Assembly: GCF_963360655.1 (NCBI RefSeq)
Contig: NZ_OY725717.1
Span: 248,001 to 312,000 of the forward strand
Length of the DNA stretch: 64,000 nt
Direction of reading: 5' to 3'
Source: Collinsella aerofaciens
Lineage (GTDB): Bacteria > Actinomycetota > Coriobacteriia > Coriobacteriales > Coriobacteriaceae
The position numbers were made by a program, and so were the translations under genes. The notes beneath the pieces were generated by a model, which ran no database searches, was not told the DNA's origin, and saw only the letters and a list, made by a program, of their open reading frames with translations. The stretch's first letter is position 1, and each line of letters opens with the position of its first letter. This document shows positions 13,518 to 30,763 of the stretch, piece after piece.

Positions 13518-14195
13518 CTAATTTGAGACGGCCTTCTTTCTAATTTCTTTTAGTAAGCCTTTTTTAAACGCAGTACTACCACCAAAAAACTTCTGGTCAG
13601 TATTAGTCTGCTTATTCGCCTGATATTTCAGACTCGTAAACTCAATGGTACAGATATAGTCCGCGGCCTGAGCCAAATAGTAATCCGATGAAGTTGTCGG
13701 CTTATAGATAACTGCATTTTTAGCCAAAGCGTAATCGATTGCCTTGTGAAGCGCACTCGAAACCGAACCCTGTCCCCCATCGTAGTAAATCTTTACAGCA
13801 TCAAACTGCTGAAACCAACTCAAATTGTCGAATATGAAATCGATGATTTCACGCCGCATTGCATCAGCAATCTGTTTAAGAGTTCGGTACCGATGCGTCT
13901 TGAATACAAACACCTTGTACGAGATGGGCAAATGTCAAAACATAACTCGAAATAGTGAAAACAGCCTTTTTCTCTCACTGATGTCCAAGTCCTTGAACTG
14001 ATCTTTTCCATTCATGAGAGGAGAAGCATGGAACGGAAGAAGCGGCAATCCGCTTTCGGCTACCGCCCTTTCATATTTCTCTATTCCCTCAGCAATGGGA
14101 ATATCTTGTTCATGAAAAACAAAGGCCACAAGATAGTATCTTTCACGAAGATCATCGCTTCCAGATTCATCAATAAAGATACTCAGCTCTCGCAT
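13518..14195 (-). pseudogene. DUF3800 domain protein interrupted by in-frame TGA
   Basis: The leftward frame starts at ATG 14195 (MRELSIFIDESGSDD, AAGGAT upstream) and stops at a TGA at 13937-13935. The same frame then continues without a shift as HLPISYKVFVFKTHRYRT to a stop at 13518, giving a 225-codon DUF3800 protein if the TGA is ignored. DUF3800 proteins have an RNase H-like DESG motif and are common in mobile and defence regions; their activity is unknown. Base composition is clearly more AT-rich than the neighbours, which suggests transfer. The single nonsense codon could be recent decay or a sequencing error. Confidence 0.75.
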
Positions 14196-14205
14196 GGGCA
14201 ATCCT

Positions 14206-14575: not shown

Positions 14576-15940
14576 CTACTCACCAGCACCGAGCGCGTCA
14601 ACAGCAGCAACAAAAGCCGCAACCTGCTTGTCGTCCATCTGTGCAGCCAAACGCCCCACGGGCTCATCGTAGGCGAACTGCACCTTATCGATAAAGCAAT
14701 CCCAAGCACGCTCATCCACACGCACGGCGGCCTCGCAATACTGGCCGAGCTTTTTGAGTCCATACCAAAACGCATTCACATGACGCGCGGGGTCCTCGTC
14801 CAGCACACCATCATAGCGGCGCCCGTTAAACTCCCGCATACGCGCCACGGCGACCTCGAGCGAATCGCCGCCATCAGCCGAAGCCTCGTCCACAAGCTCG
14901 GGAATCGGAACCTCGCGCTGAACATTATGCCTGGTAACACCGTCATACTCGCCCACTAGCACGTCTTCGTCAAGCCGAGAATCGTAATCGAAATAGCTCA
15001 AGCCACTGCAAACCCCATGCGACGAGCCCGTACCAAACGCACAGAACAACCCGCCGTCGGCAACAACGCGACGGTAGGTCTCAAACGACTTCTTAACCTG
15101 AGCAAGCAACTCGGAAAGCTCCCCAGCATCGCACGCCGTCTCGCACGCAACGCACGCAGACTCGGGCAACGATACCGGCTCCACCGTGCTCCCCGCAACG
15201 CGGGCGGCGCGCTCGGCCCGATACGCCTGCGCCGCCAAGCGCGCTCGCTGCGCAGCGCCGCGCACGTTGGTAAGCTCGCGCTCCAACGCCACGTCGCCAG
15301 CAACATCACCGACCACGTTGTCCACAAACCCGTCAGCGCGCTGCGGGCCAGTCGCACTCAGCTCAGACTCAAACGTCGCTATGATCATGCCCGCAAGGTC
15401 CGTCGCATCGGCGGCACAACGCATCTGCTCCAGCTGCGTACATAGCAGGTCTGCGTCCAAAGGCACAGCATCCACAACGTGCACGTCACCCAAACGTGCC
15501 ACGTCCTGCAGCACTAAAGCGCTGGCCGCATCGTACGCCGCGCGCACCTTGTCCGCCGTATTCGCACGTAGCTTTACCTCGATAAACGCAAGTGTCTGCT
15601 CCAGACGCGTCAGCAGCCCGGCCTTGTCCTCCATGCGCAAAAAGGCAGCATAGCGGCGCTCCATCCGTAGCGGTCCAACAATGCCCACCTGCTTGCGAGC
15701 GCGTGCAAGCGCGGCGCCCTCAACACGGCGAACATACCCGTCAACAGCCCGCACGGCAGACTCGCGCGCAGCGTGCTCGGAAGCCTCGACGCCCCTAAGC
15801 ACACCCAACAGCCCGCGGGAGCGCGCCTTGCGCACCAGCTCCCCGCGATCGCACTGCTCAAGCGCCGTCTGACGCTTGCCTACCGATTCAAAGCCAAACA
15901 GCTCGTCGAGCAGCTCGCCAACAGAACGCTCGCCCGCCAT
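14576..15940 (-). CDS. unrecognised 454-residue protein downstream of brxL
   Basis: A soluble protein of 454 residues with no family I can name. The first two thirds are rich in Ala, Arg and Glu and probably helical. A cysteine cluster CVACETACDAGEL near residue 265 could bind metal or form disulfides. The C-terminal third has FGTGSSHGVCSGLSYFDYDSR and HVNAFWYGLKKLGQYCE, which look like a compact fold. ATG 15940 is preceded by AGGAGG, and the gene begins about 75 bases after the brxL stop in the same direction. It is not one of the six core BREX type 1 genes, so it is likely an accessory gene of this operon. Confidence 0.65.
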   Translation of the reverse strand: MAGERSVGELLDELFGFESVGKRQTALEQCDRGELVRKARSRGLLGVLRGVEASEHAARESAVRAVDGYVRRVEGAALARARKQVGIVGPLRMERRYAAFLRMEDKAGLLTRLEQTLAFIEVKLRANTADKVRAAYDAASALVLQDVARLGDVHVVDAVPLDADLLCTQLEQMRCAADATDLAGMIIATFESELSATGPQRADGFVDNVVGDVAGDVALERELTNVRGAAQRARLAAQAYRAERAARVAGSTVEPVSLPESACVACETACDAGELSELLAQVKKSFETYRRVVADGGLFCAFGTGSSHGVCSGLSYFDYDSRLDEDVLVGEYDGVTRHNVQREVPIPELVDEASADGGDSLEVAVARMREFNGRRYDGVLDEDPARHVNAFWYGLKKLGQYCEAAVRVDERAWDCFIDKVQFAYDEPVGRLAAQMDDKQVAAFVAAVDALGAGE

Positions 15941-16015: not shown

Positions 16016-18397
16016 CTACAGATCCAGCGCCTTCTTCGCGGCGTCTACCGGGTCGCCATCCATGTAGAACACCGGACTCAAGCCCGAAATAATCTCGGAC
16101 GAAACACTCTGCAAACCCGCAATAGCACTCAGCGGCAAAATCACACGCTTGGCGCCGGCGTTTTTGGCCACGCGCATGATGTCCTCGAGCCCACGAATCT
16201 CGTCCATGGAGCCCGACATGCGCAAGATTCCCGGAATCGCCAGTGCGGGCATCACCGGGCGGTTGCACGCCGCGGAGCAAAGTCCCACAAACTCGGCGAG
16301 CGAGACTTCCTCGGACAGGCCCTTGCTCTGCAGGTCGTTGTAGAACAGCAGGTAATCCTTGGAGCCAATGTGCATGCCCGGCGCCACGCGGTTCGCCAGG
16401 TTCACAAAGTTGTCGAACGCGGCCTCCAGCGTATCGCGCACCGGCTTGTTAAAGGCCACGCCCTCGTGCTTAAACTTGCACTCGCCGGCAACGGCCTTGT
16501 TCTCCAGCTTGTACACGGCAACCTCGCCGCCCTGCGATCTGCCCACGCCAAACACGTGGCCGGACAGCAGTGGCCCGTCGGGAATCAGCGTGTCCTCGCT
16601 CTGCTCGGGCACGCGCACCACGTGCACGTCCTGCGGGTTGTCGGCATCCATATAGCCCAGGTTGACGTCGATAAACTCAACGCCCGCCATAATCTTGAGC
16701 TGCTCCTTTACGCGGCGACGGCCCTCGATGGCGTAATCCAACAGCCAGCGCACGTCGTCCTTGTCCATGGCCTCGTCGGGGAACAGCAGCTTTGCAAGGC
16801 CACTAAAGGTCTTGCGCACGGCGATCTCGTCACGCTTGTTAAAGTCGCTGTTAAAGCGGAAGTAACGGTCGATATGGTGCGTAAAGTCCTTGCGGCGCAT
16901 CTCCTTGCAAAACTCCGACAGGCAGTCGGTGATCAGGCCATAATGCCCGGTCAGCAGGCTCGAGCGCATCTTGGGAATCTCCCAGCCCGGCAGGTAATAG
17001 TGGATACGGTCGAAGAAGGCCGAATCGTTGTTAAACTCTGGCGGGAACGGATCAAACAGGTGCGTGGTCTTAAGGACGTTTTGCACGGTGTCGTTGATGT
17101 TGCCCTCAAAGACCATGGAGGCATCGGCGTTGATCTGGTCGCGGCCGCGCGCGTAGCTGCCACTCGCCATATAGTCCTTCATGATCTGCACGGCATTGGC
17201 GTCCTTAAAGCGCATGCCGGCGACCTCATCGAACGTCACGCAGTCCCAATGGCCCACCAAGCCCACGCGATCGGCGCGCATGGAGTTCATACGGCCGAAC
17301 AGGTTGGCCGTGGTGGTCTGACCGCCCGAAAGCAAGATGGCGTAGGGCGAGACCTCTTTGTAGATATGGCTCTTGCCGGTGCCGCGGGGACCCAGCTCGC
17401 ACAGGTTATAGTTGCGCTCGATGAGCGGCACCATACGCTCGATAAAGTGGAGGCGCTCTTTCTCGGAAAGCTCGCTGGGTTCGTAGCCAGCCGAGCGCAG
17501 CAGCATATTGAGCCACTCGTCGCGCGTAAAGTACTGGCGCTCGTCGATCATGGCATCCAGGTCCAGATTGGGCATCTGGATGGGCGTGAGCGACGCCACG
17601 CTAAACGGAGAGTCCTCGGGTCCGCGCTTTTTGCGCTTGGCCTTGGAGCGGCGCGGCGCATCGTCGCCAAAGACCTCCATGCCAAACTCGTCTTCCTCAT
17701 CCACGGGATGACGGTACTCGATGCTCATAATGCACCAAATGCCACCCTGCAGAATCTTGGAATAGTCGCGCACGTACTCGGCCGGCATTACAAACGGCTC
17801 AATAGTCAGATTGGCAAACGACGCCACGTAGATATCTTTGTACTCGTCGAGCTTGGCCGTCACCTTGTCGATGATGGTAAAACGACCCAGCTCGCGAATC
17901 TTGGACTTAATGCGCTCGGACTCATCGGGGCGCACGTAGTTATCGGTGAGGATCCTGCGGATGCGCTCCAAACCCTCTGCCACGGCATCCTCGTCGTCGG
18001 TCGAGCAGTACATGCCCAGCAGATACTCCAGTACAAAGGTGGGCACGTTGGCGCCGCGCTTCATAAGGGCCGTCAGGTCTTTGCGCACGATCTTGCCAGC
18101 AAAGTGCTCGAGCAGCTTGCCGTCCAGCCCATCCATGTCGTAGCCGTCGTCCTCGGGGGCCTCGTCCACGGCCTGGTCATAGCCATCGGTCGAGGATTCG
18201 TCCTCGGCGGGCGCCGCAACCTCATCGGGTACCGCGGCCACCGTCGGCTCCGGGGCAGGCGCGGCAGCCACGGCCTCTGCGGCAGTCTCAGCCTCCGGGG
18301 CGAGCACGGCCTCCTCTGCAGACACCGCAACCTGCACCGGCGCATTCACATCAATCGAGGGAACTTCCCACAGATTGTCGTCATTGCTATCAAACAT
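16016..18397 (-). CDS. brxL: BREX system AAA+/Lon-like protein BrxL
   Basis: A 793-residue BrxL, one of the core proteins of BREX type 1 phage defence. The family region begins at about residue 88 (DGLDGKLLEHFAGKIVRKDLT, then GANVPTFVLEYLLGMYC). It contains Walker A GPRGTGKS at 336-343, followed by YAILLSGGQTTTANLFG and a Lon-like C-terminal region (VILPLSAIAGLQSVSSEI). Known BrxL proteins form DNA-binding, MCM-like AAA+ rings. Residues 1 to about 87 are an unusual acidic Ala/Glu/Pro-rich extension. ATG 18397 has TAGGAG upstream and lies 11 bases after the pglZ stop. Confidence 0.93.
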   Translation of the reverse strand: MFDSNDDNLWEVPSIDVNAPVQVAVSAEEAVLAPEAETAAEAVAAAPAPEPTVAAVPDEVAAPAEDESSTDGYDQAVDEAPEDDGYDMDGLDGKLLEHFAGKIVRKDLTALMKRGANVPTFVLEYLLGMYCSTDDEDAVAEGLERIRRILTDNYVRPDESERIKSKIRELGRFTIIDKVTAKLDEYKDIYVASFANLTIEPFVMPAEYVRDYSKILQGGIWCIMSIEYRHPVDEEDEFGMEVFGDDAPRRSKAKRKKRGPEDSPFSVASLTPIQMPNLDLDAMIDERQYFTRDEWLNMLLRSAGYEPSELSEKERLHFIERMVPLIERNYNLCELGPRGTGKSHIYKEVSPYAILLSGGQTTTANLFGRMNSMRADRVGLVGHWDCVTFDEVAGMRFKDANAVQIMKDYMASGSYARGRDQINADASMVFEGNINDTVQNVLKTTHLFDPFPPEFNNDSAFFDRIHYYLPGWEIPKMRSSLLTGHYGLITDCLSEFCKEMRRKDFTHHIDRYFRFNSDFNKRDEIAVRKTFSGLAKLLFPDEAMDKDDVRWLLDYAIEGRRRVKEQLKIMAGVEFIDVNLGYMDADNPQDVHVVRVPEQSEDTLIPDGPLLSGHVFGVGRSQGGEVAVYKLENKAVAGECKFKHEGVAFNKPVRDTLEAAFDNFVNLANRVAPGMHIGSKDYLLFYNDLQSKGLSEEVSLAEFVGLCSAACNRPVMPALAIPGILRMSGSMDEIRGLEDIMRVAKNAGAKRVILPLSAIAGLQSVSSEIISGLSPVFYMDGDPVDAAKKALDL

Positions 18398-18408
18398 AGG
18401 GCACACTC

Positions 18409-21117
18409 CTAAAAACCAAAGTCAGCAACAGGGGCAAACGAAACAGCAATGGTATACGTCTCGCGCCAAACGATCTTGCCCGTCTCGTGCTCGCGGCAGA
18501 CCAGATAGTACGGACCCTTGGCCGAGAATCCATCCACTGCATGCAACGCAAACTTGGCATGCACCACGCGCTCCTGCGAGTTAACAGAAGTCTTGTTGGC
18601 ATGCGCCTTGACCGTATCGCTCACCTCGTTGCCACTCGCATCGGTAAACACCAGCTCGTACTCGCACGGCAAGACCTTACCTTGGGCAGGTTCTTCCTGG
18701 ATCAAGTTGACCGAGAAGAGCGAGTTGGTCACTCGGCGTCCCTCACTTAGTACGCGCAGCGTCGCCGAGCGCGTGTCGACAAAGTCCTTGGAACCCGAGC
18801 GCGCACGCCAAAAACCGATAACGGGCACGCAGAGCTCCTGCAGGCTCATGCCGCCGTGGACGTAGTTGTTAGTGCCGCCGGGACGCTTGAAGTGCACGTT
18901 CTCGCGCGGGGCAAACCCCTCAAAACCGGCGCCCAAACGTCCCATGTTAACATTAACAAACACCTCACGTACCTCGTCCGAAAGCTCGCCCACGGCCTCG
19001 TTGGGCACCACCAGATGACGCTTGCCGTACATGACGGGAGCGTCAAGGACGGGAAGGTCCGGTTTGCCGAGCATCTGGCACTCGCTGAGCTCCCGACGCG
19101 TGTAGATAAAGCCGTGGTCCGCCGTTATAACAACACGCGCGCCCGGGGCGTCGGTGCACACGCGACGCGCCAACGCAGCAAGTTCCTCCACGGTGTCCGC
19201 ACAGGCACCGAAGACGTCATCCTGCGTAGCGGCCTTCTCGCCCGTAGCATCGATCTTGTTGTGGTAGAGGTAGACAAGTCTTGAGTCCTTGAGCAGCGCC
19301 TTACGCTCGGTTCCCGCCATGTTGAGGTATGCGCTCGAGCGTAAAGCGCGGGCCGTAGGCTCAACATGGGTAAGCACGGCCTCGCGTTGCGGAGTCGTTG
19401 CGGTGGGCTTGCCGTCAGCCAGCACAAACGAACCATCCGCTGCAAGCCCAAGCGCCTGATGCGGCAGCAGCGCGGGCATGCCCACCTCTGTAATGGAGGG
19501 AAAGACCGCCTGCATGCTAGAAACCTTGACGTTGCCGCCGCGCTCGCGCTCGAGCAGCGCCGCGACGTCGCAGGCCACCTCATAGCGCAGCGCGTCGCTC
19601 ACGATAACGACCGTCGTTTTAGCAGAGCCCACAAAGGTGGGCAGCACATGCCAGTAGAACTCATCCTGCCGTTCGGGACCCTCGATGTAGCCGCAATCGG
19701 CCAACTCCCCTTGCGCAGCGGATGTCCAGCAGGCATTGGCATCGGCCAAGAACCAGTTACTGTAGAGATTCTCCGCCCAGTCCGCCACAGCGCGGGCAGG
19801 CTCCTCGAGCGTATCGCACTCGACGGAGCGCGCCCGCAGATACGCGGTGCACATATGGCGATAGGCAGCATCCATGGAATACCAATCGGACGTATAGGCA
19901 TCCCACACCTGCTGGGGTTGCGCCAGATGGAACCCGCCCGCATGTGCCTGCCTAAATGCGCACATATCGGCCACAGCGGCAAGCAAACCAAAGTAGCTCT
20001 CGACACGGCGATACCAGCTTAGGTCGCAGCGACGCGCCACAAAGGCGCGTGCGTCCTCAACACGGTCTGCACCCTGGGCAAACGAGCAGAACAGCTGCGA
20101 GAGCACAGCCTCATTGACGCACGGGAACACATCAAGCGAGGCCAGCGCATCGATCGGCAGAGCCTCAAACCGCACAAAGAGCCCGCGGGCATCCTCCACC
20201 AAACGACAGATCTCAAATAGGTCCTCGCTCGACGCCTGGGTATCGGCGGCCTGGTCCCACGCGCGCACCGCCTCAAGGCAATAGGGGCCGTAGGCGGGAG
20301 CCACATAGCTTTCGAGTCCCTTGAGCGCTCCCTCGGGAAGCGCGGTAGACGCCGCTGTAAGGAGCACATGGGATGAAAGCATAAGCAATGAGTCGCGCTC
20401 ATACAGCGGTCCCTCAAACCCATAGCAGCGAAGCATAAAGGCAGAGAGCACATCGCGCACGCAGTACTTGTCCATCAACTCGGCCAGCGCCTCGGGACCC
20501 TCGTGCAGCAGCATGGTCATACAGCCACGCAGCACAAACGCGGGGCGCGCGTCACCAAGCTCTTTACCGCCAAAAATCACCGTAAGGATGCCGAGTTCGA
20601 TATCGGATGCGCCCGAGGCATGCGGAACACACGCGGCAAACTTAGCGCAGCGGGTCTTGGCATCAAAAAACGTCTTGTGCTCGCGCAGGCTCTCGCGCAC
20701 GGCGTCGATATTCTCGATGCCCAGCTGATCGGCCAAAAGCGAAAGATAGTCAGCCTGGAACTGATCGGCATACAGCTCAACATCGGCAAGCCAATCACCC
20801 TCAAGCCTGCCGCGCGGGCAACGGCGATACAGCAAGATATCGCTCGCAAGGTCATCGCGGTTGATGAGCTTCTTGACGGCAAACATACGGCCCTCGCAGG
20901 CCTCAACAAAGCGCACCGGGCGCTCAAGGTCACCGTGAGCAGGCATTACGCCGGCATCGGCCCCCACGCCGTCGAAACCCTCGGCAGCCAATCGCTCAAA
21001 CTCAGGAGCAAACTCGCCGTCTGCATCGTGCCAAACCACCACACGGCGCGGCGCGCATGAGGACAACGGCTGCAAAAATCGCAGCTTGAGCTGTTCTTCT
21101 ACATCGATCTTGGGCAT
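18409..21117 (-). CDS. pglZ: BREX-1 system phosphatase PglZ
   Basis: A 902-residue PglZ of the type seen in BREX type 1. The central region belongs to the alkaline-phosphatase-like superfamily. Metal-ligand segments are VIVSDALRYE (about 504-513), FPSITEVGMPAL (about 539-550) and VITADHGFIYTRRE (about 663-676). PglZ is essential for BREX defence together with the methyltransferase PglX and is thought to act with it in a complex. ATG 21117 has AAGGAT upstream, 23 bases after the stop of the preceding pglX C-terminal gene. Length agrees with the family. Confidence 0.93.
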   Translation of the reverse strand: MPKIDVEEQLKLRFLQPLSSCAPRRVVVWHDADGEFAPEFERLAAEGFDGVGADAGVMPAHGDLERPVRFVEACEGRMFAVKKLINRDDLASDILLYRRCPRGRLEGDWLADVELYADQFQADYLSLLADQLGIENIDAVRESLREHKTFFDAKTRCAKFAACVPHASGASDIELGILTVIFGGKELGDARPAFVLRGCMTMLLHEGPEALAELMDKYCVRDVLSAFMLRCYGFEGPLYERDSLLMLSSHVLLTAASTALPEGALKGLESYVAPAYGPYCLEAVRAWDQAADTQASSEDLFEICRLVEDARGLFVRFEALPIDALASLDVFPCVNEAVLSQLFCSFAQGADRVEDARAFVARRCDLSWYRRVESYFGLLAAVADMCAFRQAHAGGFHLAQPQQVWDAYTSDWYSMDAAYRHMCTAYLRARSVECDTLEEPARAVADWAENLYSNWFLADANACWTSAAQGELADCGYIEGPERQDEFYWHVLPTFVGSAKTTVVIVSDALRYEVACDVAALLERERGGNVKVSSMQAVFPSITEVGMPALLPHQALGLAADGSFVLADGKPTATTPQREAVLTHVEPTARALRSSAYLNMAGTERKALLKDSRLVYLYHNKIDATGEKAATQDDVFGACADTVEELAALARRVCTDAPGARVVITADHGFIYTRRELSECQMLGKPDLPVLDAPVMYGKRHLVVPNEAVGELSDEVREVFVNVNMGRLGAGFEGFAPRENVHFKRPGGTNNYVHGGMSLQELCVPVIGFWRARSGSKDFVDTRSATLRVLSEGRRVTNSLFSVNLIQEEPAQGKVLPCEYELVFTDASGNEVSDTVKAHANKTSVNSQERVVHAKFALHAVDGFSAKGPYYLVCREHETGKIVWRETYTIAVSFAPVADFGF

Positions 21118-21140
21118 GAATATCCTTACCGTATCTGCAG

Positions 21141-22109
21141 TTACTTAATCTTCGCCAGCACATCCTGAAACTTGGCGTAGTTGACCTTGACGCCGTCATC
21201 CAGGTCGATCTTAATCATCTGGTCTGCCAAGTGGTGCAGTTTCTCCTCGTAGGCAACGGTCTCTTTGAGCTGGTCGTTGAGCTTTTTGATGCGCTTATCC
21301 AAGCGCACGCGCTCGCCGCGCTCGGCACTGACAAGGGCATCGTTGGCATACCCGATCTGGGCACGGTAGCGCTCCTGCTGCTCATGCACATAGTCGGTGC
21401 GGATGCGAGCCAACAGGTCAGGCTGGTAGCGATGCATGTAAACAAGGCACTTGAAGCCGTTCTTCTTGCCGCTGTCGAACAGCCAGTAGATGGGGCGCTT
21501 CTTATAGGTCTGGCAGTGGTCCTTAAAGAAGTCCTTCAAAAAGTAGGTGCGGATTACCTCGCGCGAGGTACCCTTGCCGCCGAGTGCCTCGGCAATAAAG
21601 GCCAGGTTCTGCTCAAGCGTCCCCTCGCCATACACGGTGCGCACAAAGTCGATAAAGTAGCGCACGATGTCGTCGTCAAAGTACTCGTCATCGGTAATGG
21701 GCAGCACGTTATCGCTATCGGGCATAAAGGTCACATGATCAGAGTTGGGCATCTTGACCAGATAGTCATCGACTGTGGCGCCCTGATCGGCCAGGACCAG
21801 CCCGTCCACATCCAACGAATAGCGGCCAAACATGCAGCCCACGGCATAGCTTATGAGCGAGGTGATCTCGTCTCGCTTGGTGCGCACGTATTTGTTGCCC
21901 TTATAGCTCTCGGGAATCTCGTCGGCGGTATTGAAAATGCGCGCCACCGAAACGTACTTATCCTCGACCTCGATGGGCACCTCACCCTCCATATTGTAGA
22001 TCTTGGCAAAGATTCGGTTGAGCTCTTCCTCGTTACTGCGAAGCTGCTCGAAGCGAGCATTGACCTCGGCCTTGCGGGCCTCGTATTTTTCTTGAAGTAA
22101 AGTGGCCAT
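21141..22109 (-). CDS. pglX: C-terminal part of PglX as a separate gene
   Basis: This 322-residue protein corresponds to the C-terminal domain of full-length BREX-1 PglX. Recognisable stretches are RSNEEELNRIFAKIYNMEGE, ISYAVGCMFGRYSLDVDG, LPITDDEYFDDDIV, and KRPIYWLFDSGKKNGFK with YMHRYQPDLLARIRTDYVHE. It has no methyltransferase motifs. It has its own ATG (22109) with AAAGGAT ahead, so it is translated independently. The N-terminal part is encoded at 22980-25490, and the two are separated by an AT-rich insertion. The two products could reassemble into a working enzyme; this is inference. Confidence 0.88.
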   Translation of the reverse strand: MATLLQEKYEARKAEVNARFEQLRSNEEELNRIFAKIYNMEGEVPIEVEDKYVSVARIFNTADEIPESYKGNKYVRTKRDEITSLISYAVGCMFGRYSLDVDGLVLADQGATVDDYLVKMPNSDHVTFMPDSDNVLPITDDEYFDDDIVRYFIDFVRTVYGEGTLEQNLAFIAEALGGKGTSREVIRTYFLKDFFKDHCQTYKKRPIYWLFDSGKKNGFKCLVYMHRYQPDLLARIRTDYVHEQQERYRAQIGYANDALVSAERGERVRLDKRIKKLNDQLKETVAYEEKLHHLADQMIKIDLDDGVKVNYAKFQDVLAKIK

Positions 22110-22370
22110 GAGGCCATCCTTTCATTGTTGATGAGTTGTCAAGAGGCTTAAACTAGGGGACCGAAATCTCCAAAAATACCCCGACCTTACCGATCGACTT
22201 CTGGAAAAGCTATTCACCGCATCGGGCATTTGCAAAAACGCACTAGTGACTCATGAAGTCGCAAACCAAACCCTGCGAACTGCATCAAGCGTAAAGGAAA
22301 GACAACTTGATATCATTTCTCAGCTCACTAGTTAAAGCCAACTAAATACCCGGACACGAGCTGAAACCCA
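22110..22370. other. AT-rich gap within split pglX, with a plus-strand frame remnant
   Basis: 261 bases between the cargo gene and pglX C-terminal part. On the plus strand, codons 22135-22335 form an uninterrupted frame with protein-like composition (reading LGDRNLQKYPDLTDR ... VKERQLDIISQLTS, then stop), but there is no ATG, GTG or ribosome site. It may be the 3' end of a gene truncated by recombination. The AAAGGAT site for the pglX C-terminal gene occupies the left edge. Confidence 0.4.
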
Positions 22371-22970
22371 TTAACGAATATCAGGCCCAGCCTTTATCAG
22401 CTTCATCCATTTACATAGAGTCGAATTCTTGATTAGAATTCTTGCAGTGAGTCTTTTGATGTCACCTGCCGGGTCATCCTTTCGTTTTCCCGCAACATCC
22501 TCGATAGCGAACCATATATCGCCCTTTGACTTAAATGCACAGAATCTGCCGTGAGCAAATCCATTTCGTAAGTGATAAAACAAACTGATCGTTTGATTGC
22601 TTTTGGCATCATAAAAGACAGCAGACTCGAAGGGCTTTGACTCGATGCCAGCGCAATCAAACAAATCAGCATTACGCAAAGCCTGTTCCATATCACCAAC
22701 AGCCGCGGCAGACCAATATAAAGACTTATTTGAGCTTGCTGCCTTAAGTTTTTTATTCAAATATTGGGGTTTTCTCCAGGGAGTATCCCACCCGTATTCA
22801 GATACCGGAATGCTTCTGCTAGACAGCCCCGGAGCTGGAGTTTCGACAACAAAGAACCTAAGAAGCGGGGAAAGCACAGGGCCCAGTGACTTTTGAGATA
22901 AACCACATTTAACCCATGCAGGATTAGATTCAACAAACACAACCTTATTTGCTGATACTGTTTCAAACAT
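22371..22970 (-). CDS. cargo gene inside split pglX, R-x4-H (HEPN-like) motif protein
   Basis: A 199-residue protein counted from ATG 22970 (GGTGAG upstream); a GTG directly after the pglX stop at 22979 would add three residues. I do not recognise a named family. The segment ISLFYHLRNGFAHGRF at about residues 127-142 contains R-N-G-F-A-H, the R-x4-H arrangement typical of HEPN domain nucleases and related defence or toxin proteins. GC content is visibly lower than that of the flanking BREX genes, which points to insertion. Translation is probably coupled to the upstream pglX part. The HEPN assignment rests on one motif and is tentative. Confidence 0.6.
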   Translation of the reverse strand: MFETVSANKVVFVESNPAWVKCGLSQKSLGPVLSPLLRFFVVETPAPGLSSRSIPVSEYGWDTPWRKPQYLNKKLKAASSNKSLYWSAAAVGDMEQALRNADLFDCAGIESKPFESAVFYDAKSNQTISLFYHLRNGFAHGRFCAFKSKGDIWFAIEDVAGKRKDDPAGDIKRLTARILIKNSTLCKWMKLIKAGPDIR

Positions 22971-22979
22971 GAATCTCAC

Positions 22980-25490
22980 CTAAACCAAGGGGTTGCGTTT
23001 GAAATCCCAGGAGGTTTCAAACGAATCCCAATCGGTTTTTGATAGTTCGCGGCACGAGTCGACCATGTCGTTGACCAACGGCTCCTGTTCCTCGTTCTGA
23101 ATGATCGGGTAGGTTGCGATTTGGCCTACCTCGAAATTAAGCGTCGGCGAGAGCATGCTTGCGACACGCATGATCACAGAGCTGTTACAAGCTCCCTGGA
23201 GATACTTGAGTGACTCCTCGTCGCTAAAAACGCTCGTGCCCGCCACATCAAAGATATGCCCAGCAGGCTTAAAACGAAACGCAATGGACCCGCTTGAAAT
23301 CTTCGACCAGGTAATCGATGGGCTAAAGAAGCAGTTTGTATTCTGTGGCCTGGAAAGCAATCTACCATTCTGGTCTTTGTAATTACGGATCTCCTGTCCG
23401 TCATTCTCCCAGTTAACAACTGAGCTATTATTTCCGTACCATTTGCGGAAATCGCCGCCCTTGTTGTAGGGGAACCACTTGCAAGCGCTTTCAATCGACT
23501 CTTGAATAGATCCACAGGAATAGACGCTCTTGCAATCATCGACTTCCCACCACTCGCGAACGAAACGAGCGTTCTCGCCAGTAGCAAGCCCTTGGCGCGG
23601 CTTGCCATACTCACTGAGCTGTTTTGCGTTTCCAAACGCATCCAGAAGAGCGTCACTGGCCCAGTAGGCTATGGGAATGCCTGGGATCTGTTTAAAGGTG
23701 TCGGCGCCGCGACGGTAGAACCAGCCGCAGTCGGGGTTCTGGATCGCCGCAAGCAGCTTAAGGCGCTTCGCCTCGCTGCCGTTGATGTCGACGAGGCGCA
23801 CGTAAGCGCCCTCGTATGCCGCGCGACCGTTGTAGATGACATCGGCGGTTACGTTGACGACCTCGCCGCCGATGGCGTCAAATGCGCGGGGGCCGAGATG
23901 AGCCATCGAGACAATCGTTTTGCCCTCGATGATCGAAGAGCGCATCTTCTCAAAGCTGCCCAGGAACATCCAACTCTGCATGGTAACCATTGCAGCGTAG
24001 CCCTTATCCTCGACAAGGTTAAAACCGCGCTCGATAAAGCACGTGCAGAGGTCGCTCTTCACGTCGGGGTAGTTCTTCTTGATCCACTTGCTCATGAATG
24101 GATTAAAGCTGCTGCTGCCCATATACGGAGGATTCGCAACGGTGCAGGCAAAACGACGGGACAGCTTCTCGCAGATGGCGGCAGCGCTTTCGAGCTTAGT
24201 TTTGGCCGTAGCGGCAAAAAGGTCATCGGAACAACTCGCGGCGGCAGCCTTGAGCTCGTCGATCTCGTCCTCTGAGGGATTGAGCAGCGAACCGATCTCG
24301 CCCAAATGACTCAGCTCCTCGGCGAGCTTCTTGTTACCCGGCAGCTCGTCCTCCCCTAGCGGGATGCTCGAGAGCACGGCAACGTCGGCGCGAACGCCAC
24401 GCCTAAAGAAGCGACGATCGTGCTCGCGGGCGCACATGGCAAGCGCCAGCTCCGCGATCTGAGCCGCACGGGGGTCGATCTCCATGCCAGCGAGGTTTTT
24501 GGTCAGGATGAGCTCCGGGATCTCGCGCTCGCGGTAGCCGCGCTCCTCGTACACGGCAAAGAGCAGCTCAAACGCATAGACCAGGATATGGCCCGAGCCA
24601 CATGCGGGGTCGCAGAGGGTTATCTCCTCGGGGCTCGAAATGCGGATGAAGTCCTCGTGCTCAGTATCAGGCTCGATGTAATACTCCATGCGCTCGCGCA
24701 GCGAACTCCCCGGGTTGTTGAGCATCCACAGACGGCCGAGCGAGTTCTGGACCATATAGCGCACGATCCACTCGGGGGTGAAGAGCTGCGTGGCGGGCGC
24801 GATGTCCGCCGCCGCTGCTTTGCGTTTTGCCTTGAAGAACTCGTCTTTGACGTCAGCGTTGTAGTACTGATACATCCAGCCCAGAACGGTCACGCCCTTG
24901 CGCCAGCCCTCGTCAGCGAGAATGGTGTTGAGTTTGCCCACCACGCCGTCGGACATCATGAGGCCCTGGGGCAACAGCAGCTCCATGGCACCGCCCACGC
25001 GTTCAAAGACGCCCGGCAGGCAATCGGCAAGCTCCTCGCACTGAGCCATAAACAGGTAGCGCCACAGCGGTTCATCCAAGCCCGCCATCTTGAGCTCGGC
25101 TATGCGATCGGTATCGGCCGTCGCTATCTCCACGTCCAGTGCGTTCTCCACGGCCTCGCTGCCATGGCTGCCGTCCGCACGGCTCAGCATGCGCATACGG
25201 CTGGGGAGCCATCCGCGTGCATCCATAAAGCGAATGGCCACGATGCGGTTGAACCAGGTGTAGGCCGCTCGGTCGCGCAGCGCCTCGTGACCCACCTCTG
25301 TCTGTATGCGCAGCAGCTCGTCACGCTGCTCAACCTCAGCAGGACTTAGGGGCAGGCCGTTGACGGTCTCGGACCCAACGGGCGAAGGTGCAGGTTCGGT
25401 GATGCCGTAGCGCACCATCTGTGCCTCCACGCCTTTGATGAGCTCTGTACGGGCCCAGGTGCAGAAGCTCTTAAGAGCAGAATCGTTCAT
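22980..25490 (-). CDS. pglX: BREX-1 adenine-specific DNA methyltransferase PglX, N-terminal and target-recognition part
   Basis: An 836-residue protein carrying the methyltransferase core and target-recognition region of PglX, which methylates adenine in the BREX recognition site and marks self DNA. The SAM-binding motif DPACGSG is at 294-300 and the catalytic NPPY at 453-456. The protein ends at ETSWDFKRNPLV, a sequence that in intact PglX (about 1,200 residues) runs straight into the C-terminal domain. Here that domain is a separate downstream gene at 21141-22109. ATG 25490 has AAAGG upstream, about 65 bases after the brxC stop. Confidence 0.92.
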   Translation of the reverse strand: MNDSALKSFCTWARTELIKGVEAQMVRYGITEPAPSPVGSETVNGLPLSPAEVEQRDELLRIQTEVGHEALRDRAAYTWFNRIVAIRFMDARGWLPSRMRMLSRADGSHGSEAVENALDVEIATADTDRIAELKMAGLDEPLWRYLFMAQCEELADCLPGVFERVGGAMELLLPQGLMMSDGVVGKLNTILADEGWRKGVTVLGWMYQYYNADVKDEFFKAKRKAAAADIAPATQLFTPEWIVRYMVQNSLGRLWMLNNPGSSLRERMEYYIEPDTEHEDFIRISSPEEITLCDPACGSGHILVYAFELLFAVYEERGYREREIPELILTKNLAGMEIDPRAAQIAELALAMCAREHDRRFFRRGVRADVAVLSSIPLGEDELPGNKKLAEELSHLGEIGSLLNPSEDEIDELKAAAASCSDDLFAATAKTKLESAAAICEKLSRRFACTVANPPYMGSSSFNPFMSKWIKKNYPDVKSDLCTCFIERGFNLVEDKGYAAMVTMQSWMFLGSFEKMRSSIIEGKTIVSMAHLGPRAFDAIGGEVVNVTADVIYNGRAAYEGAYVRLVDINGSEAKRLKLLAAIQNPDCGWFYRRGADTFKQIPGIPIAYWASDALLDAFGNAKQLSEYGKPRQGLATGENARFVREWWEVDDCKSVYSCGSIQESIESACKWFPYNKGGDFRKWYGNNSSVVNWENDGQEIRNYKDQNGRLLSRPQNTNCFFSPSITWSKISSGSIAFRFKPAGHIFDVAGTSVFSDEESLKYLQGACNSSVIMRVASMLSPTLNFEVGQIATYPIIQNEEQEPLVNDMVDSCRELSKTDWDSFETSWDFKRNPLV

Positions 25491-25556
25491 GGTTGATGAG
25501 CCTTTCTAAACGCCATAAACCACCGGTGCTCGCTTTGGCACCGGTGGCCCCGCGAG

Positions 25557-28500
25557 TTAGTTGATACGAATCTCGTCGTTTGCAGCGAGCTCCTGCATAA
25601 GGCGAGAGCGCAGGTCGTCCACGTAGCGCTCCACGTCCTCTGCGGACAAGAGGCGACTCGGCTTGGCCAAATCGGCGCGGCGCACGGTCTTGATCTTGCG
25701 CTGGGGCTTAGACGCGGGCACGGGCGCAGACGATGCGGCGCCCTTGTTGGAGATCTTCTTGACCACCTCACCCGTACTCGTGACCTCGGTGGTGCGGCGC
25801 TCGTTGTCCATTCGCATGCGGGCCTCATCCACGGCGTCGTATATCTTGTTGGTTGCAGCAACGATCCAGTTTTCCCAGTTTGCCGCGAGGGCGTTAAGCT
25901 CGTTGAGGCTCTGGACGCCATGGGCGCGGTTCTTGAACGACTCATACCTGGTGTTGGCGTCCGCGATGGCATCCTTGGCCTGCTTGACAAAACCATCTTG
26001 GCTCTCGGCCTGCTTCCGCAAATCCTGCAGGTCGTTTTCGATACGACACAAGAACTCGTTGCGGCGAATGCCCAGGTGCTTTTTGATGTCTTCCTCGACG
26101 GGTGCCATCAACGGCTGAAGGTCTTTAATGCGGCCGTAGGGCTTTGGGTCTTTGAGGATCTCGCGTACCTTTGCCACGTTCTCCACAGCGTTGGGAATGT
26201 CATCGGAGGCATACTCGATGCCCTCGGTGCGACTCAAGAAATCCTTGGCGTGGTCAAACGCTGTTCGTTGGTTGGACTCGAAGAACTCAACCACCTTGTC
26301 AAAGTCTTCCTTGGCATCGAACAGGCGGTCCTCGTGCTTGGTGAACGTGGTCAAGAACGCCTCGGAATCGCTCTGGTCCTTAAGAACGTCGACCACCTCC
26401 GAGCGCATCTTCTCGCACTCGTCCTCACCGGGATACGGGTAGGCCGGCTTGATACCCGTGTAGTAGTCGCGTGCCATGGCGACGCACACCTCACGCAAGC
26501 CCTCAAGGCGCTCCTTGAGCTCGGCCACGAGCTTATCCTCGTTGGAGGGCACGGTCTTGAGATCAAACAGGCCACGCATAAGCTCGCCCGTGGCGCGCAG
26601 CAACCGGTCGCTCATGCGCACGCGCAAACGCACCTGGGCCTTATCGGCATCCTTACGCAGGAGCGACACCATGCGGCTGTCGTTAGCTTGAACCGTCTGA
26701 CCGCCAAACAGCACCTGCGCGCGCTGCTCCACTACAAGCTGCGCCACCACATTTGCGATGTCAACCTCGCGCCAGCCATAGGGCTTTTGCTGGTACCTGC
26801 GCTGGATATCGCCCATAGCGGTATCCAGGTGGCGCTGGTGCTGAACTTTGAGGTAGTCCTCGACCTCCTTGAGCGCACGCGTGTTACCCGCGTCCATGCC
26901 AGCGAGCCCCGCTTGAACGTTGCCCGCCAGAGTGGAGCGGATATCGGAATCGCTCGTGACCGGCGCGCCGATATAGTCGGCCTTTTCAAAGACCACATCG
27001 CACAGCTGCGCCAGCACTTGCTCAAAGACCTGAGCGGGTTTGGCCGCGCGGACCTCAATTATGCGGCCGTTGACCGCGCAACGTGCATGGAGTACGGCCT
27101 CGCTCAAAAGGACATCGGCCTCTTTCTCGTTATAGGCTGCCTCGCGCATCTTGGACTCGACGATCTGGCGCGTACTCGGCTGAAGCTCCTGGAGATTTCG
27201 CGTCTTGGCGTACTTGCGGATCTTGGCGGCGTTGACGAGCGTCTCCCAATAATCCGCCTCGTCGCTCAAAGCCACGATGGCTTTGCCCGAAGAAGCCAAG
27301 GCCAGCTCGGTATCGTCCGCACGGCCCAGATCGCTCGCCATAGTCGCCACGCAAAGCTCCATGCCGCCCATGCTGGCACCGTGGATTGAGCCGTCCACAT
27401 AGCGGTCAAAAGGAAAGTCGTTGGCCCCGCGGTTGAGTTTACGCGCGGTGTAGATGCTGTCGAACAGGCGCTTTTTGATAGACTCGATCACCTGCGCGTT
27501 ATCGACCGGAGTGCGTGCGATCTCCTGCGCTATCTCCTGCTCCTCGTCGGTGAGGAAGCTATAGGCATCGCCCTGGCGTGCCACGTAGTTCTCGCGCTCC
27601 AGGCGGGCAAGGGACTCCTTGACGCGGTCCTTGAGGGCGCGCATGTCCACGTCGAGGCCGTCGATCATGAAGATGGAGATGTTCTCGACCGTGGCCTTAA
27701 CGTAGCCGATGTAACGAATCAGGTACAGGAGCTTGAGCACCTGAACGTCGTAGGGTTCAAGGCCCTTTGCGTCCTCGGCCGCACGGACCGCGCGGTCGAC
27801 CACCTGGTTGATGCCGTGCTCAAGGTCTTTGGAAATAGTGTCGAAGAAGCACCAGAACGGCACGAGTGCACCGGTCTGGTCATACTGGATGGCCTGAGCG
27901 CTCTCCTGGAACGCGCTCAGCATGGAGCGCTCGCCCGTTGACATGTGCTTGGCCTTGACACCGTGCTTGCGCACCTCGGTCATCACGTCGGGCAGGAGCT
28001 TAAACTGGTAGCCCACAAACGGGTAGCTGGCCACAAAATCCTTGGAGTTGGCGTAGCCGGCAAGGTCGGAGCGCGAGCCACCCTCAAAGGTAAAGTTGTT
28101 TTTAAGCACGGCGGCGTCTTGCTCGTAGACCTGTGCAAGCATATCGGCCGTCGGCGCGGTCTTCTCGAGCACACGGCGCTGGATGACCTCGTCCACGCTG
28201 GAGCTGGAGAGCGAAAGGCGGGTATTGAAGCGGCCCTGGATCTTTGAAAAGTCGTTGCCCACGGGCAGGCTCAGGTTGTCGATGGCCTCCTGGCTCGTAA
28301 CCATCACCCACACGCGGCCACCGCAGGCGGCACCCAGCTCCTCGACGACGGTCTGAAGGCTCAGCATAAGGCTTGGGTCCTTGTCGTTTGTAATAAACTG
28401 ACCCACCTCGTCGACCATAAAGAGCAAACGGAAGTTGCCGCCGTGGGCCGCTGCCTGAGCGTCTACGTAGTCCTTGACCTTTTTGGCAAAGACATCAGGG

Positions 28501-29219
28501 GCCAAAACCTCGTCCTCAGAACCCTCGAGCCAGTTCCATGCGGCCTTTTCGCTCATGCCGAGCACGCTCTGCAGCACCTCGACGACGTCGTCCTCAAAGT
28601 AGCTGTAGGTATCGCGGGTCTGGAGCCAAGACTCGCCGTTGACGCGCTCAAAGGCCTCGCGGAACTCCCGGGTCTTGCCCAGGGAATCGATGTAGTCCTC
28701 GAGCTTTGCAAGCTTGAGGTCCTCGCCGTAGAAGCCGCGCGCCTCGTAGAACATGCGCTCAAAGCCGCGAAGCAGCGCCGTGGGAGCCGTATCACCCTGC
28801 TTCCACTGGCCCGCCTTGCTATCGATGTTAAAGAGGATGGCCTGCGTGGGCACCGAGCACGCGCGCTCCATGGCAGCCGCGACCATGGGGTCGACGATTT
28901 TGCCGTCAAAGTAGCGAATGGCGCTCATGCCACCGATCTGGCGATTCTCGAGCAGGTAGCTCAGCATCTTGAGGAAGTGCGATTTACCGGAACCGAAGAA
29001 GCCACTGATCCACACGCCGATCTTGTCGGTGGGCACATCGATGGCATCGCCGTATGCCTTGAAGAACGTGGCAAGGTGCCCTTGCAGCTCGCGCGTCACC
29101 ACGTACTCGTCAAGCTCCTGGCGGATGGACCCATCTTTTGAATCCTGGACCTTGACCACGCCGTTGATGGAGCGGTTGATGTCTTTTGCAAAGAGGTCGC
29201 GAATGATAGTGTTGTCCAT
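25557..29219 (-). CDS. brxC: BREX system P-loop ATPase BrxC
   Basis: A 1,220-residue BrxC, a large ATPase and core BREX protein. The Walker A sequence GFFGSGKS is at residues 73-80 inside VWISGFFGSGKSHFLKML. Other conserved stretches are LLFMVDEVGQFI (Walker B region) and VWVMVTSQEAI. The N terminus MDNTIIRDLFAKDINRSING is the family start, and ATG 29219 is preceded by AAAGGAG. Its length is normal for the family. The gene sits between brxB (about 77 bases upstream) and pglX. BrxC is required for defence in studied BREX systems; its precise mechanical role is not known. Confidence 0.95.
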   Translation of the reverse strand: MDNTIIRDLFAKDINRSINGVVKVQDSKDGSIRQELDEYVVTRELQGHLATFFKAYGDAIDVPTDKIGVWISGFFGSGKSHFLKMLSYLLENRQIGGMSAIRYFDGKIVDPMVAAAMERACSVPTQAILFNIDSKAGQWKQGDTAPTALLRGFERMFYEARGFYGEDLKLAKLEDYIDSLGKTREFREAFERVNGESWLQTRDTYSYFEDDVVEVLQSVLGMSEKAAWNWLEGSEDEVLAPDVFAKKVKDYVDAQAAAHGGNFRLLFMVDEVGQFITNDKDPSLMLSLQTVVEELGAACGGRVWVMVTSQEAIDNLSLPVGNDFSKIQGRFNTRLSLSSSSVDEVIQRRVLEKTAPTADMLAQVYEQDAAVLKNNFTFEGGSRSDLAGYANSKDFVASYPFVGYQFKLLPDVMTEVRKHGVKAKHMSTGERSMLSAFQESAQAIQYDQTGALVPFWCFFDTISKDLEHGINQVVDRAVRAAEDAKGLEPYDVQVLKLLYLIRYIGYVKATVENISIFMIDGLDVDMRALKDRVKESLARLERENYVARQGDAYSFLTDEEQEIAQEIARTPVDNAQVIESIKKRLFDSIYTARKLNRGANDFPFDRYVDGSIHGASMGGMELCVATMASDLGRADDTELALASSGKAIVALSDEADYWETLVNAAKIRKYAKTRNLQELQPSTRQIVESKMREAAYNEKEADVLLSEAVLHARCAVNGRIIEVRAAKPAQVFEQVLAQLCDVVFEKADYIGAPVTSDSDIRSTLAGNVQAGLAGMDAGNTRALKEVEDYLKVQHQRHLDTAMGDIQRRYQQKPYGWREVDIANVVAQLVVEQRAQVLFGGQTVQANDSRMVSLLRKDADKAQVRLRVRMSDRLLRATGELMRGLFDLKTVPSNEDKLVAELKERLEGLREVCVAMARDYYTGIKPAYPYPGEDECEKMRSEVVDVLKDQSDSEAFLTTFTKHEDRLFDAKEDFDKVVEFFESNQRTAFDHAKDFLSRTEGIEYASDDIPNAVENVAKVREILKDPKPYGRIKDLQPLMAPVEEDIKKHLGIRRNEFLCRIENDLQDLRKQAESQDGFVKQAKDAIADANTRYESFKNRAHGVQSLNELNALAANWENWIVAATNKIYDAVDEARMRMDNERRTTEVTSTGEVVKKISNKGAASSAPVPASKPQRKIKTVRRADLAKPSRLLSAEDVERYVDDLRSRLMQELAANDEIRIN

Positions 29220-29296
29220 GGGTGCTCCTTTGGGTTTGGGAACGTATGGCAAAGGGTTGTTGCCGGCGGCAGTGCCTTGTCTGCGGGGAGCCGTGC

Positions 29297-29989
29297 TTAC
29301 GAGATATCGATGGCGCGGTAGTAGTTGTCGGCCGGCAGACGGTTAAAGAGCTGGAAAGAAGAGCCGTTGAAACTGCCCGGATAGGCGGCGACCACAGGCA
29401 CCTCATCAAAATCCGCAAGCATGCAGTGGAGAAGCGTGTGTATGCGAAAGAACGGGAAAACCTCGCCCGCGCCGGTGAGGAGAACGACGTCTCCAGGCGC
29501 GTGCGGCTCGGTCTGCTCAAGGATGTACACGGCGACTTTCTCGGGCGAGGCGAACTTGGCCACGTCCTCGAGCACGCGCTGGGTACCGCGGCGCTCCTCT
29601 TGGTGCGGGATAGCCTTGAGGACACGGCGCTTTTCGAGAATTGCCAGCACGGCGTCGTAAAGGTTCACGACCTTGAGCGTGCACGGAAGCTTGTCGGCCT
29701 CGGCATCGCGTGAAAGGGTGTCAAATAATGCACGCGCCTCAAACTCCAGCGCGGGGTCATAGCAAAAAGTGTGGAAGCCGATCTCATTGCCTATGCCCTT
29801 GTTGGCCAAAAAGTCCTCGCTGCACAGGCACTCGCGCAGAAGCTGCGCACGGCGCTCAAATTCCTGACAGGCGCGCTCGGAGCGGGCATGCGCCGCCACG
29901 ACGCTCTTGCGGGAATGGATACCGATATTGGTGGTGAGATCAGTCGCCGGGGTGATAACAGGGTCGACGGCGCTTTTGACGGGAGCCAC
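29297..29989 (-). CDS. brxB: BREX protein BrxB (DUF1788)
   Basis: A 230-residue DUF1788 protein, a core component of BREX type 1. Typical segments are GIGNEIGFHTFCYDP, the LTGAGEVFPFFRIHTLLHCM core and VVAAYPGSFNGSSFQLFNRL near the C terminus. The start is a GTG at 29989, one base after the brxA stop codon, so translation is coupled to brxA; AGGGCGG lies upstream. BrxB is thought to be part of the BREX complex, with no enzymatic motif visible. Confidence 0.92.
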   Translation of the reverse strand: MAPVKSAVDPVITPATDLTTNIGIHSRKSVVAAHARSERACQEFERRAQLLRECLCSEDFLANKGIGNEIGFHTFCYDPALEFEARALFDTLSRDAEADKLPCTLKVVNLYDAVLAILEKRRVLKAIPHQEERRGTQRVLEDVAKFASPEKVAVYILEQTEPHAPGDVVLLTGAGEVFPFFRIHTLLHCMLADFDEVPVVAAYPGSFNGSSFQLFNRLPADNYYRAIDIS

Positions 29990-29990
29990 G

Positions 29991-30674
29991 CTACATCACC
30001 GCCCTGCCGGTAAGGGCCGCGATAAGCGACTGCTCGCCCAGCTGAACCAAGGCTCGCTCGACATCGGAATCGAGGAAGAGTGGTGACAGGCGCTCGGACT
30101 CCGGGCCCTGGCCCTCGCCGATAAGGCCGGCATGGCGGAGCGTCTGGCGGAGCGAGCCCTTAATGCGCTTGACCGTGGCCTCAGTCCAGCGGGCCGCGTC
30201 CGGATACTCCGTGGTAAAGCGTGTCATAAAGGCGTTGAGGTCAACCGCCGTAAAGGCATAATCGAAGTTTTGTAGGCGCTCCCCTACCTCGACGAGCACG
30301 AGCTCGCGCACGATATCGTAGCGGCAGATCATGCTGTAGAAGATGGCCTGGTCCGCCTGCGTGGGAGTGCCGGATGCCATGAGCCTGGTTAGGGATGACG
30401 CAGCCTCGACGGCGGTTTTGGGGTCGATGCCGCGCGCGGCGCATACGGCGTCCGTGGGCACCATGGCGTCAAGGCGGCGAAGGCACACGGTTGCGCGGTT
30501 GGCGACCATGCGCTCCGTGGGATATTGAAAGAGGTTCTCGCTCTTTACGCGTACAATGACCTGCTCGTCGCTTGCGCCCTGCATACGAAGGGCAGCGACG
30601 ATGCGCATCTCATGCGGGAGGAATTGCTCGCGGGTGAGCACCCCCCCCCGAACGCTTTTTGTGGTTACATCCAC
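29991..30674 (-). CDS. brxA: BREX protein BrxA (DUF1819)
   Basis: First gene of the BREX operon, a DUF1819 protein that in studied homologues is a small helical DNA-binding protein. Family matches are FLPHEMRIVAALRMQGASDE and VKSENLFQYPTERMVANRA. The most likely start is the GTG at 30674, eight bases after a GGAG, giving 227 residues; a frame extension to 30743 has no family similarity. A run of nine G (30641-30649, plus-strand C) falls at codons 9-12. Gain or loss of one base there would shift the frame, so expression may be switchable. A GTG directly after the run (codon 12) is an alternative start that would put the tract in the leader. Confidence 0.9.
   Translation of the reverse strand: MDVTTKSVRGGVLTREQFLPHEMRIVAALRMQGASDEQVIVRVKSENLFQYPTERMVANRATVCLRRLDAMVPTDAVCAARGIDPKTAVEAASSLTRLMASGTPTQADQAIFYSMICRYDIVRELVLVEVGERLQNFDYAFTAVDLNAFMTRFTTEYPDAARWTEATVKRIKGSLRQTLRHAGLIGEGQGPESERLSPLFLDSDVERALVQLGEQSLIAALTGRAVM
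30641..30649 (-). repeat. brxA: poly-G(9) tract at the 5' end of brxA
   Basis: Nine consecutive C on the plus strand, G on the coding strand, giving codons CGG GGG GGG GTG near the beginning of brxA. Homopolymers of this length are classic slipped-strand sites for phase variation. Confidence 0.85.
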
Positions 30675-30763
30675 AGTACACGCTCCAAGGGTGTCAAAGG
30701 CTGTCACAAGTGCGCCGCAACCCGGCAGGCAGGCGCGGCGCACATGACAATAATCATACCTGT

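Follow-up and report, generated by a model that had tools for sequence, protein, structure and literature searches.

A complete type 1 BREX (bacteriophage exclusion) operon, with brxA, brxB, brxC, pglX, pglZ, and brxL in the canonical order, was found on the minus strand of a 64,000-nucleotide stretch of Collinsella aerofaciens DNA (contig NZ_OY725717.1, positions 248,001 to 312,000; hereafter the window). The methyltransferase gene pglX is present in this operon as two genes, pglX-N and pglX-C, separated by an accessory (cargo) gene. It is probable, as judged from sequence comparisons, that PglX is here a natural heterodimer, in which PglX-C is the constant subunit and PglX-N the exchangeable one, and that the junction between the two genes serves as a slot for cargo. 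The N-terminal bundle, methyltransferase, and target-recognition domain (TRD) are located in PglX-N. The rest of the C-terminal domain (CTD), which is conserved and includes the metal site and the DNA-contact helices known from Escherichia coli BrxX, makes up PglX-C. We infer that the two products associate physically and have methylation activity; they would reassemble into a two-jawed enzyme, with PglX-C supplying DNA contacts outside the recognition site. A preliminary description of the window had regarded it as plausible that PglX functions as two subunits, with foreign cargo between the genes, and this is now the favored reading. The host genome (G000) is 2.3 Mb in size, and its nearest named relatives belong to Collinsella. 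Loci and genomes are designated below by L and G numbers, respectively.

The break in PglX

A single PglX polypeptide of ∼1200 amino acids (aa) is usual in type 1 BREX, though not formally required; in the window, it is represented by products of 836 and 322 aa. Alignment with the BREX-1 PglX model NF033452 (1210 positions) assigned positions 1–899 to pglX-N and 906–1209 to pglX-C, indicating that almost no PglX sequence was lost at the split. In terms of E. coli BrxX, pglX-N ends at residue 870 and pglX-C could be aligned from about residue 891 (to 1195 in the PDB entry). The domains of BrxX have been mapped as N-terminal domain (NTD, 1–210), methyltransferase domain (MTD, 211–650), TRD (651–837), and CTD (838–1205) (PMC11842806), and the break thus lies shortly past the TRD, within the first part of the CTD. 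The location of both genes and the near adjacency of their broken ends in intact PglX, as given in the preliminary description, were thereby confirmed. It had also noted no other lesions in the halves. The homology of pglX-N spans the MTD and TRD, the NPPY motif is present, and there is no internal stop; pglX-C has its start codon preceded by a Shine–Dalgarno-like site. The genome contains exactly one pglX-N and one pglX-C, and no spare, inverted, or partial pglX copies were found in it.

The pglX-N product of the window terminates in ETSWDFKRNPLV. Among split loci in which N precedes C, the N product was found to stop right after the motif ETSWDFKRxPL[V/I], with zero extra residues, in 41 of 44, and the C product begins with the consensus M-x-x-L-x-x-K-[YF]. 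An AlphaFold2 (AF2) model of PglX-C showed a long helix from residue 5 onward. In fused relatives, the linker at the corresponding point is mostly 20 residues long and 33–45 residues in others, while the unsplit L078 carries some 260 additional in-frame residues there. The variability of the linker together with the additional residues of L078 indicates that the junction is a seam that tolerates change, with stronger conservation on either side. As the break falls in this variable linker, immediately ahead of the initial long helix of PglX-C, the halves could reassemble without a peptide bond. The split, read in the preliminary description as one break, is real; it is, however, a conserved architecture, with the same split residue recurring in dozens of genomes, which is far beyond chance.

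Conservation and distribution of the two halves

Both pglX-C and pglX-N are under purifying selection. The pairwise dN/dS of pglX-C was 0.07–0.19 against the window and 0.03–0.15 in six other pairs, and that of the first 480 residues of pglX-N was 0.11–0.16, with 0.24 in one nearly identical pair. All 72 full-length N parts, from split and fused loci, retained the NPPY motif and lacked a stop. A stringent motif I pattern for methyltransferases, which missed many loci of both the split and the fused kind, was set aside. In the C part, the metal-site residues D131, D146, and Y240 were invariant and D133 nearly so; these residues align with D997, D1012, Y1113, and D999 of EcoBrxX, respectively (PMC11842806). 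A search with the AF2 model of PglX-C returned only BrxX/PglX entries below an E-value of 0.001.

Among 197 related genomes, a C match was obtained in 26; in 24 of these, it was full-length and did not lie at the edge of a contig. Of these full-length matches, 20 were stand-alone frames (307–367 aa) and four were fused frames (1030–1189 aa). The preliminary description had raised the possibility that homologues of pglX-N are always complete without the CTD; this was not borne out, as the C part, separate or fused, was present in 24/24 relatives with a strong N match. The sole strong C match without N in these genomes sits at a contig edge. A wider scan of species genomes revealed stand-alone C genes in Coriobacteriaceae, Eggerthellaceae, Atopobiaceae, Oscillospirales, Selenomonadaceae, and others, with fused forms alongside, as well as in one Spirochaetales and one Gastranaerophilales metagenome-assembled genome (MAG). 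At the phylum level, separate C genes were seen in Bacillota and Spirochaetota, among others. Plasmid records among the best matches listed were annotated as pglX and once as a putative restriction enzyme. Quick trees of the two parts required at least 10 changes between the split and fused states on the C tree (all rows) and 15 on the N tree, and on the C tree, the 33 rows of one clade, from Coriobacteriia and other Actinomycetota, were all split. Both a single origin followed by transfer and several independent origins of the split are possible. Separately, a second, partial pglX-C (residues 147–305, 63% identity) was observed at L110 8815–9291 (oriented; G013:C1:786710-787186), at a large distance from the BREX operon of that genome.

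These data bear on whether foreign DNA simply broke pglX, leaving a BREX system that is dead or retained for its other parts only. The foreign AT-rich DNA between the halves would fit such an inactivation, and the interrupted pglX genes of cyanobacterial MAGs and haloarchaea have been treated as loss of function (PMC9716671). Against it stand the identical split residue, the selection acting on both halves with their start codons and Shine–Dalgarno-like sites intact, the conservation of the split across orders, the sharing of one C by two intact N genes (described below), and the nearly insert-free split of L075, in which only 50 bp separate N and C. Inactivation was hence regarded as highly improbable.

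Another explanation is that PglX-C does not complete PglX and acts independently in the BREX complex, as a regulator or a DNA-binding subunit, for instance, with PglZ or BrxC. The C gene commonly adjoins pglZ (median gap 52 bp) or brxC, its conservation is far above that of pglZ at the same distance (∼73% versus 34–36%, L112), and C-terminal variants of PglX uncouple restriction from modification in Salmonella (reviewed in PMC12707154). However, the stand-alone C matches the fused CTD in length and in its metal-site residues, fused relatives keep the CTD within PglX, and C accompanies N in every relative that has N; this explanation was considered quite improbable. Mutational studies of PglX from E. 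coli and Salmonella have demonstrated a requirement for the CTD in DNA binding or defense, and the anti-restriction protein Ocr binds to the PglX CTD (PMC11842806, PMC11341690).

Several points nevertheless weigh against a two-subunit PglX. The AF2 model of PglX-C alone was only moderate, with a mean predicted local distance difference test (pLDDT) score of 66, and the Salmonella PglX CTD, where the cut was engineered, could not be expressed alone (PMC11341690). DUF3800 genes lie antisense in the N–C gap of several related split loci, which implies that a separate promoter may be required for C, and in the window, matches to a promoter or terminator for pglX-C were near chance level only. In addition, many of the counted genomes are related to one another, and the counts are therefore not independent events.

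Exchange of the specificity half and the cargo slot

The separation of the two genes would free the specificity half to be swapped by homologous recombination in Collinsella, to be duplicated so that two N genes surround one C, and to be shuffled by inversion in other Coriobacteriia. In Collinsella, the first ∼485 residues of PglX-N were ∼95% identical, the next ∼345 were replaced wholesale, and the last residues were conserved again. Past the end of pglX-N, the cargo is variable, and identity returns at the Shine–Dalgarno-like site of pglX-C. The window shares its cargo (93%) with G041, from which it differs in the TRD, and its TRD (89%) with G013, from which it differs in the cargo. The assumption of one cargo per TRD was rejected in Collinsella, since the window and L109, L108 and L031, and L029, L032, and L046 have the same TRDs with different cargo, and the window and L108 have the same cargo with different TRDs. 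These sharing patterns indicate that the TRD and the cargo are reassorted independently of each other; homologous recombination within the conserved seams would be the simplest route.

In Anaerotardibacter muris (L037), one C gene (319 aa) is flanked by two complete N genes (857 and 855 aa), both of which end at the split point; their products are 0.88–0.97 identical over residues 1–480 and fall to as low as 0.27 in the TRD. A Gastranaerophilales MAG (L071/L133, G476) contains two complete N genes, one spare TRD fragment, and one C. The accessory genes of L133 (2834–11288) differ between and after the two N genes (HEPN-like in one case, DUF2971 and RhuM in the other), with the single pglX-C placed last. 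In a clade with the gene order brxC-C-N (L041, L045, L131, L132, and L134), inverted partial N copies end at the split point, with inverted repeats of 74–129 nt. Such two-N-one-C and inverted-N arrangements make sense if C is the common subunit and N is exchangeable. A link to the pglX shuffling of lactobacilli had been proposed in the preliminary description; inverted TRD copies do occur in relatives, and one of them (L131; G471) has a tyrosine recombinase (Pfam Phage_integrase, E 1.5e-26), but neither feature is present in this genome. Other observations in the same clade are a HEPN-family gene of its own following the spare TRD of L134, and a pglX-N whose reading frame continues into a region with weak similarity to DUF2971 (E 0.043), i.e., a natural fusion of N and cargo, at L045 8406–11606 and L131 10964–14164.

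The gap between pglX-N and pglX-C would act as a slot for accessory genes read together with pglX-N. In the window, it was found to comprise 870 bp with 44% GC, in agreement with the ∼870 AT-rich bases noted earlier, and to contain the small coupled gene that had been predicted there, encoding a 202-aa protein of the HEPN family. Its Shine–Dalgarno-like AGGTGAG overlaps the stop codon of pglX-N, which suggests coupled translation, and the cargo is apparently translationally coupled to pglX-N. The reverse-oriented frame remnant also proposed for the gap was not supported, as six-frame translation of the spacer between cargo and pglX-C gave short open stretches only (∼50 codons on the plus strand) and no recognizable gene, and the same spacer occurs in the close relative G041.

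The family of 14 proteins encoded in these slots has an invariant R-N-x-x-A-H (14/14). The window protein carries the RX4-6H motif of HEPN proteins as R-N-G-F-A-H at the end of a helix (residues 129–142 in the model), and the Pfam HEPN family pEK499_p136 matched 10 of the 14 members (best E 4.3e-7), the match of the window's own protein being weak. The fold model of the cargo protein (pLDDT 66) gave no usable match in a fold search, and this prediction was too weak to add support. The family was present in 16/45 split and 0/31 fused loci; as these loci are related, the p-value of 8.5e-5 is only indicative. The cargo protein, whose nuclease activity is predicted, most likely serves as an RNase effector in backup defense or abortive infection. 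Other N–C slots contain RiboL-PSP-HEPN, DUF2971, SIR2-like, RhuM, and unnamed genes. One unannotated protein family, mostly large (up to 1205 aa), was observed in the gaps of L033 (2766–5456), L036 (4846–5475), L040 (2963–5896), L116 (9407–13024), and L117 (10132–13029), the L033 member having a weak LmuB-like match (E 6e-4). The gap of L044 (2634–6020) encodes a protein of 1128 aa with domains resembling the RNA polymerase alpha-CTD and sigma-70 region 4. A presumed 399–450-aa family upstream of C elsewhere was rejected, being the wrong strand of antisense DUF3800 genes.

It may be asked whether the cargo itself drives the split, i.e., whether a selfish, toxin–antitoxin-like cassette lands at the conserved junction, the resulting split being tolerated. 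This would be compatible with a working two-piece enzyme and with a cargo that is diverse and often of HEPN or DUF2971 type; the N–C spacing exceeds 200 bp in 42/45 split loci, and the in-frame residues of L078 show an insertion at the same point in an unsplit gene. However, L075 and L063 are split with no cargo gene between N and C, and in the brxC-C-N clade, C lies ahead of N, so that insertion between them does not alone explain the split. A role of the cargo as the driver was thus judged unlikely. Relocation of a slot from the pglX–pglZ interval to the N–C gap was rejected, as the former is about equally used in split (19/42) and fused (17/31) loci.

As a speculative extension of the two-subunit reading, to which little credence is given, one PglX-C might serve several interchangeable PglX-N in a multi-specificity BREX, with the N-coupled cargo (HEPN RNase and others) as a guard that the assembled complex keeps inactive and that is freed when a phage anti-BREX protein such as the CTD binder Ocr disturbs the complex.

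The features of the window are listed in Table 1. No Rfam match to an RNA element was obtained within 21000–26000. Near the downstream end of the operon, a DUF3800-like gene (13518–14201, minus strand) is broken by one in-frame stop, and a 454-aa open reading frame directly downstream of brxL (14576–15940, minus strand) had no match in Pfam, PADLOC, or PHROGs.

Table 1. Coordinates of the BREX operon and of the elements within its divided pglX.
Feature	Position in window	Strand	Evidence or remarks
brxA	29991..30743	-	PADLOC BrxA, E 2.1e-28
brxB	29297..29989	-	Pfam BrxB, E 1e-31
brxC	25557..29252	-	NCBIfam BREX_BrxC, E 0
pglX-N, 836 aa (NTD, N6-methyltransferase, TRD, first part of CTD)	22980..25490	-	NF033452, E 4.7e-273; PDB BrxX/PglX relatives
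Exchangeable TRD segment of pglX-N, about residues 485–829	23004..24038	-	Blockwise identity drops from ∼0.95 to 0.24–0.7, recovering over the final residues
Conserved ∼66-bp 3' end of pglX-N, TRD/cargo seam	22979..23044	-	About 80–86% DNA identity across differing TRDs and cargo
Cargo gene encoding a HEPN-family protein; GTG start giving 202 aa, possible alternative ATG at 22970	22371..22979	-	RNGFAH motif; family membership
Spacer, no recognizable gene	22110..22370	.	Six-frame translation; same spacer in G041
Shine–Dalgarno-like gaaagga of pglX-C	22117..22123	-	DNA conservation between genomes resumes about here
pglX-C, 322 aa (rest of CTD as separate gene)	21141..22109	-	NF033452, E 2.1e-115
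pglZ	18409..21117	-	Pfam PglZ, E 4.6e-43
brxL	16016..18406	-	Pfam BrxL_ATPase, E 1.8e-131

Relation to known systems

The operon resembles the type 1 BREX systems of E. coli HS, Salmonella, and Bacillus cereus in its six core genes, their order, the regions of PglX, and the metal-site residues; it differs in that PglX, which is of one piece in those systems, is encoded by two genes with an accessory gene inside. Type 1 BREX is characterized by phage exclusion and by methylation of N6-adenine within a non-palindromic 6-bp site. In Lactobacillus rhamnosus, a partial pglX lies next to an integrase (PMC7513527), and the inverted partial pglX-N copies of the relatives G470, G471, and G472, along with the recombinase of G471, are comparable. 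However, the full PglX of L. rhamnosus is a single polypeptide of 1198 aa, whereas here C is separate, the TRD cassettes end at the split point, and this genome is without spare copies. The arrangement is also distinct from Type I restriction–modification (HsdM/HsdS): both combine a constant subunit with an exchangeable specificity part, but here the methyltransferase and TRD stay joined, with the CTD as the constant partner. Interrupted or duplicated pglX is attributed to Goldfarb et al. (2015), as cited in PMC11842806 and PMC9716671.

Duplicated, phase-variable, or interrupted pglX genes are mentioned in earlier papers (PMC11842806, citing older work; PMC9716671). These cases are alike in having pglX as two partial genes, read there as interruptions; these texts describe neither a fixed split site nor selection, and neither a shared C subunit nor a cargo slot. 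Accessory genes between pglX and pglZ are known, such as BrxU/GmrSD and PARIS, as are auxiliary and backup effectors including standalone HEPN RNases (PMC12839542), and the HEPN and other cargo of the N–C slot fits these auxiliary or backup effectors. Defense-type cargo within the operon is thus common to both, but the slot described here lies inside pglX, between the specificity half and the C half, and is additional to the pglX–pglZ slot. The main text of the 2026 BREX survey (PMC12839542) contains neither "split" nor "fission," and in the literature on split, inverted, truncated, or separate pglX/BrxX, no account of a stable two-subunit form with a cargo slot was found. Hence, the two-subunit PglX with a cargo slot appears to be a newly described form, although priority is not certain, while duplicated and interrupted pglX were already known.

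A two-subunit PglX would explain how BREX specificity can change through the swapping or addition of one gene while the remainder stays fixed. With C as a separate gene, the role of the CTD becomes open to testing by simple gene deletion and complementation. The N–C gap offers a fixed place in which to seek new BREX-linked effectors, and pipelines that score the split genes as truncated pglX may wrongly call such BREX systems broken.

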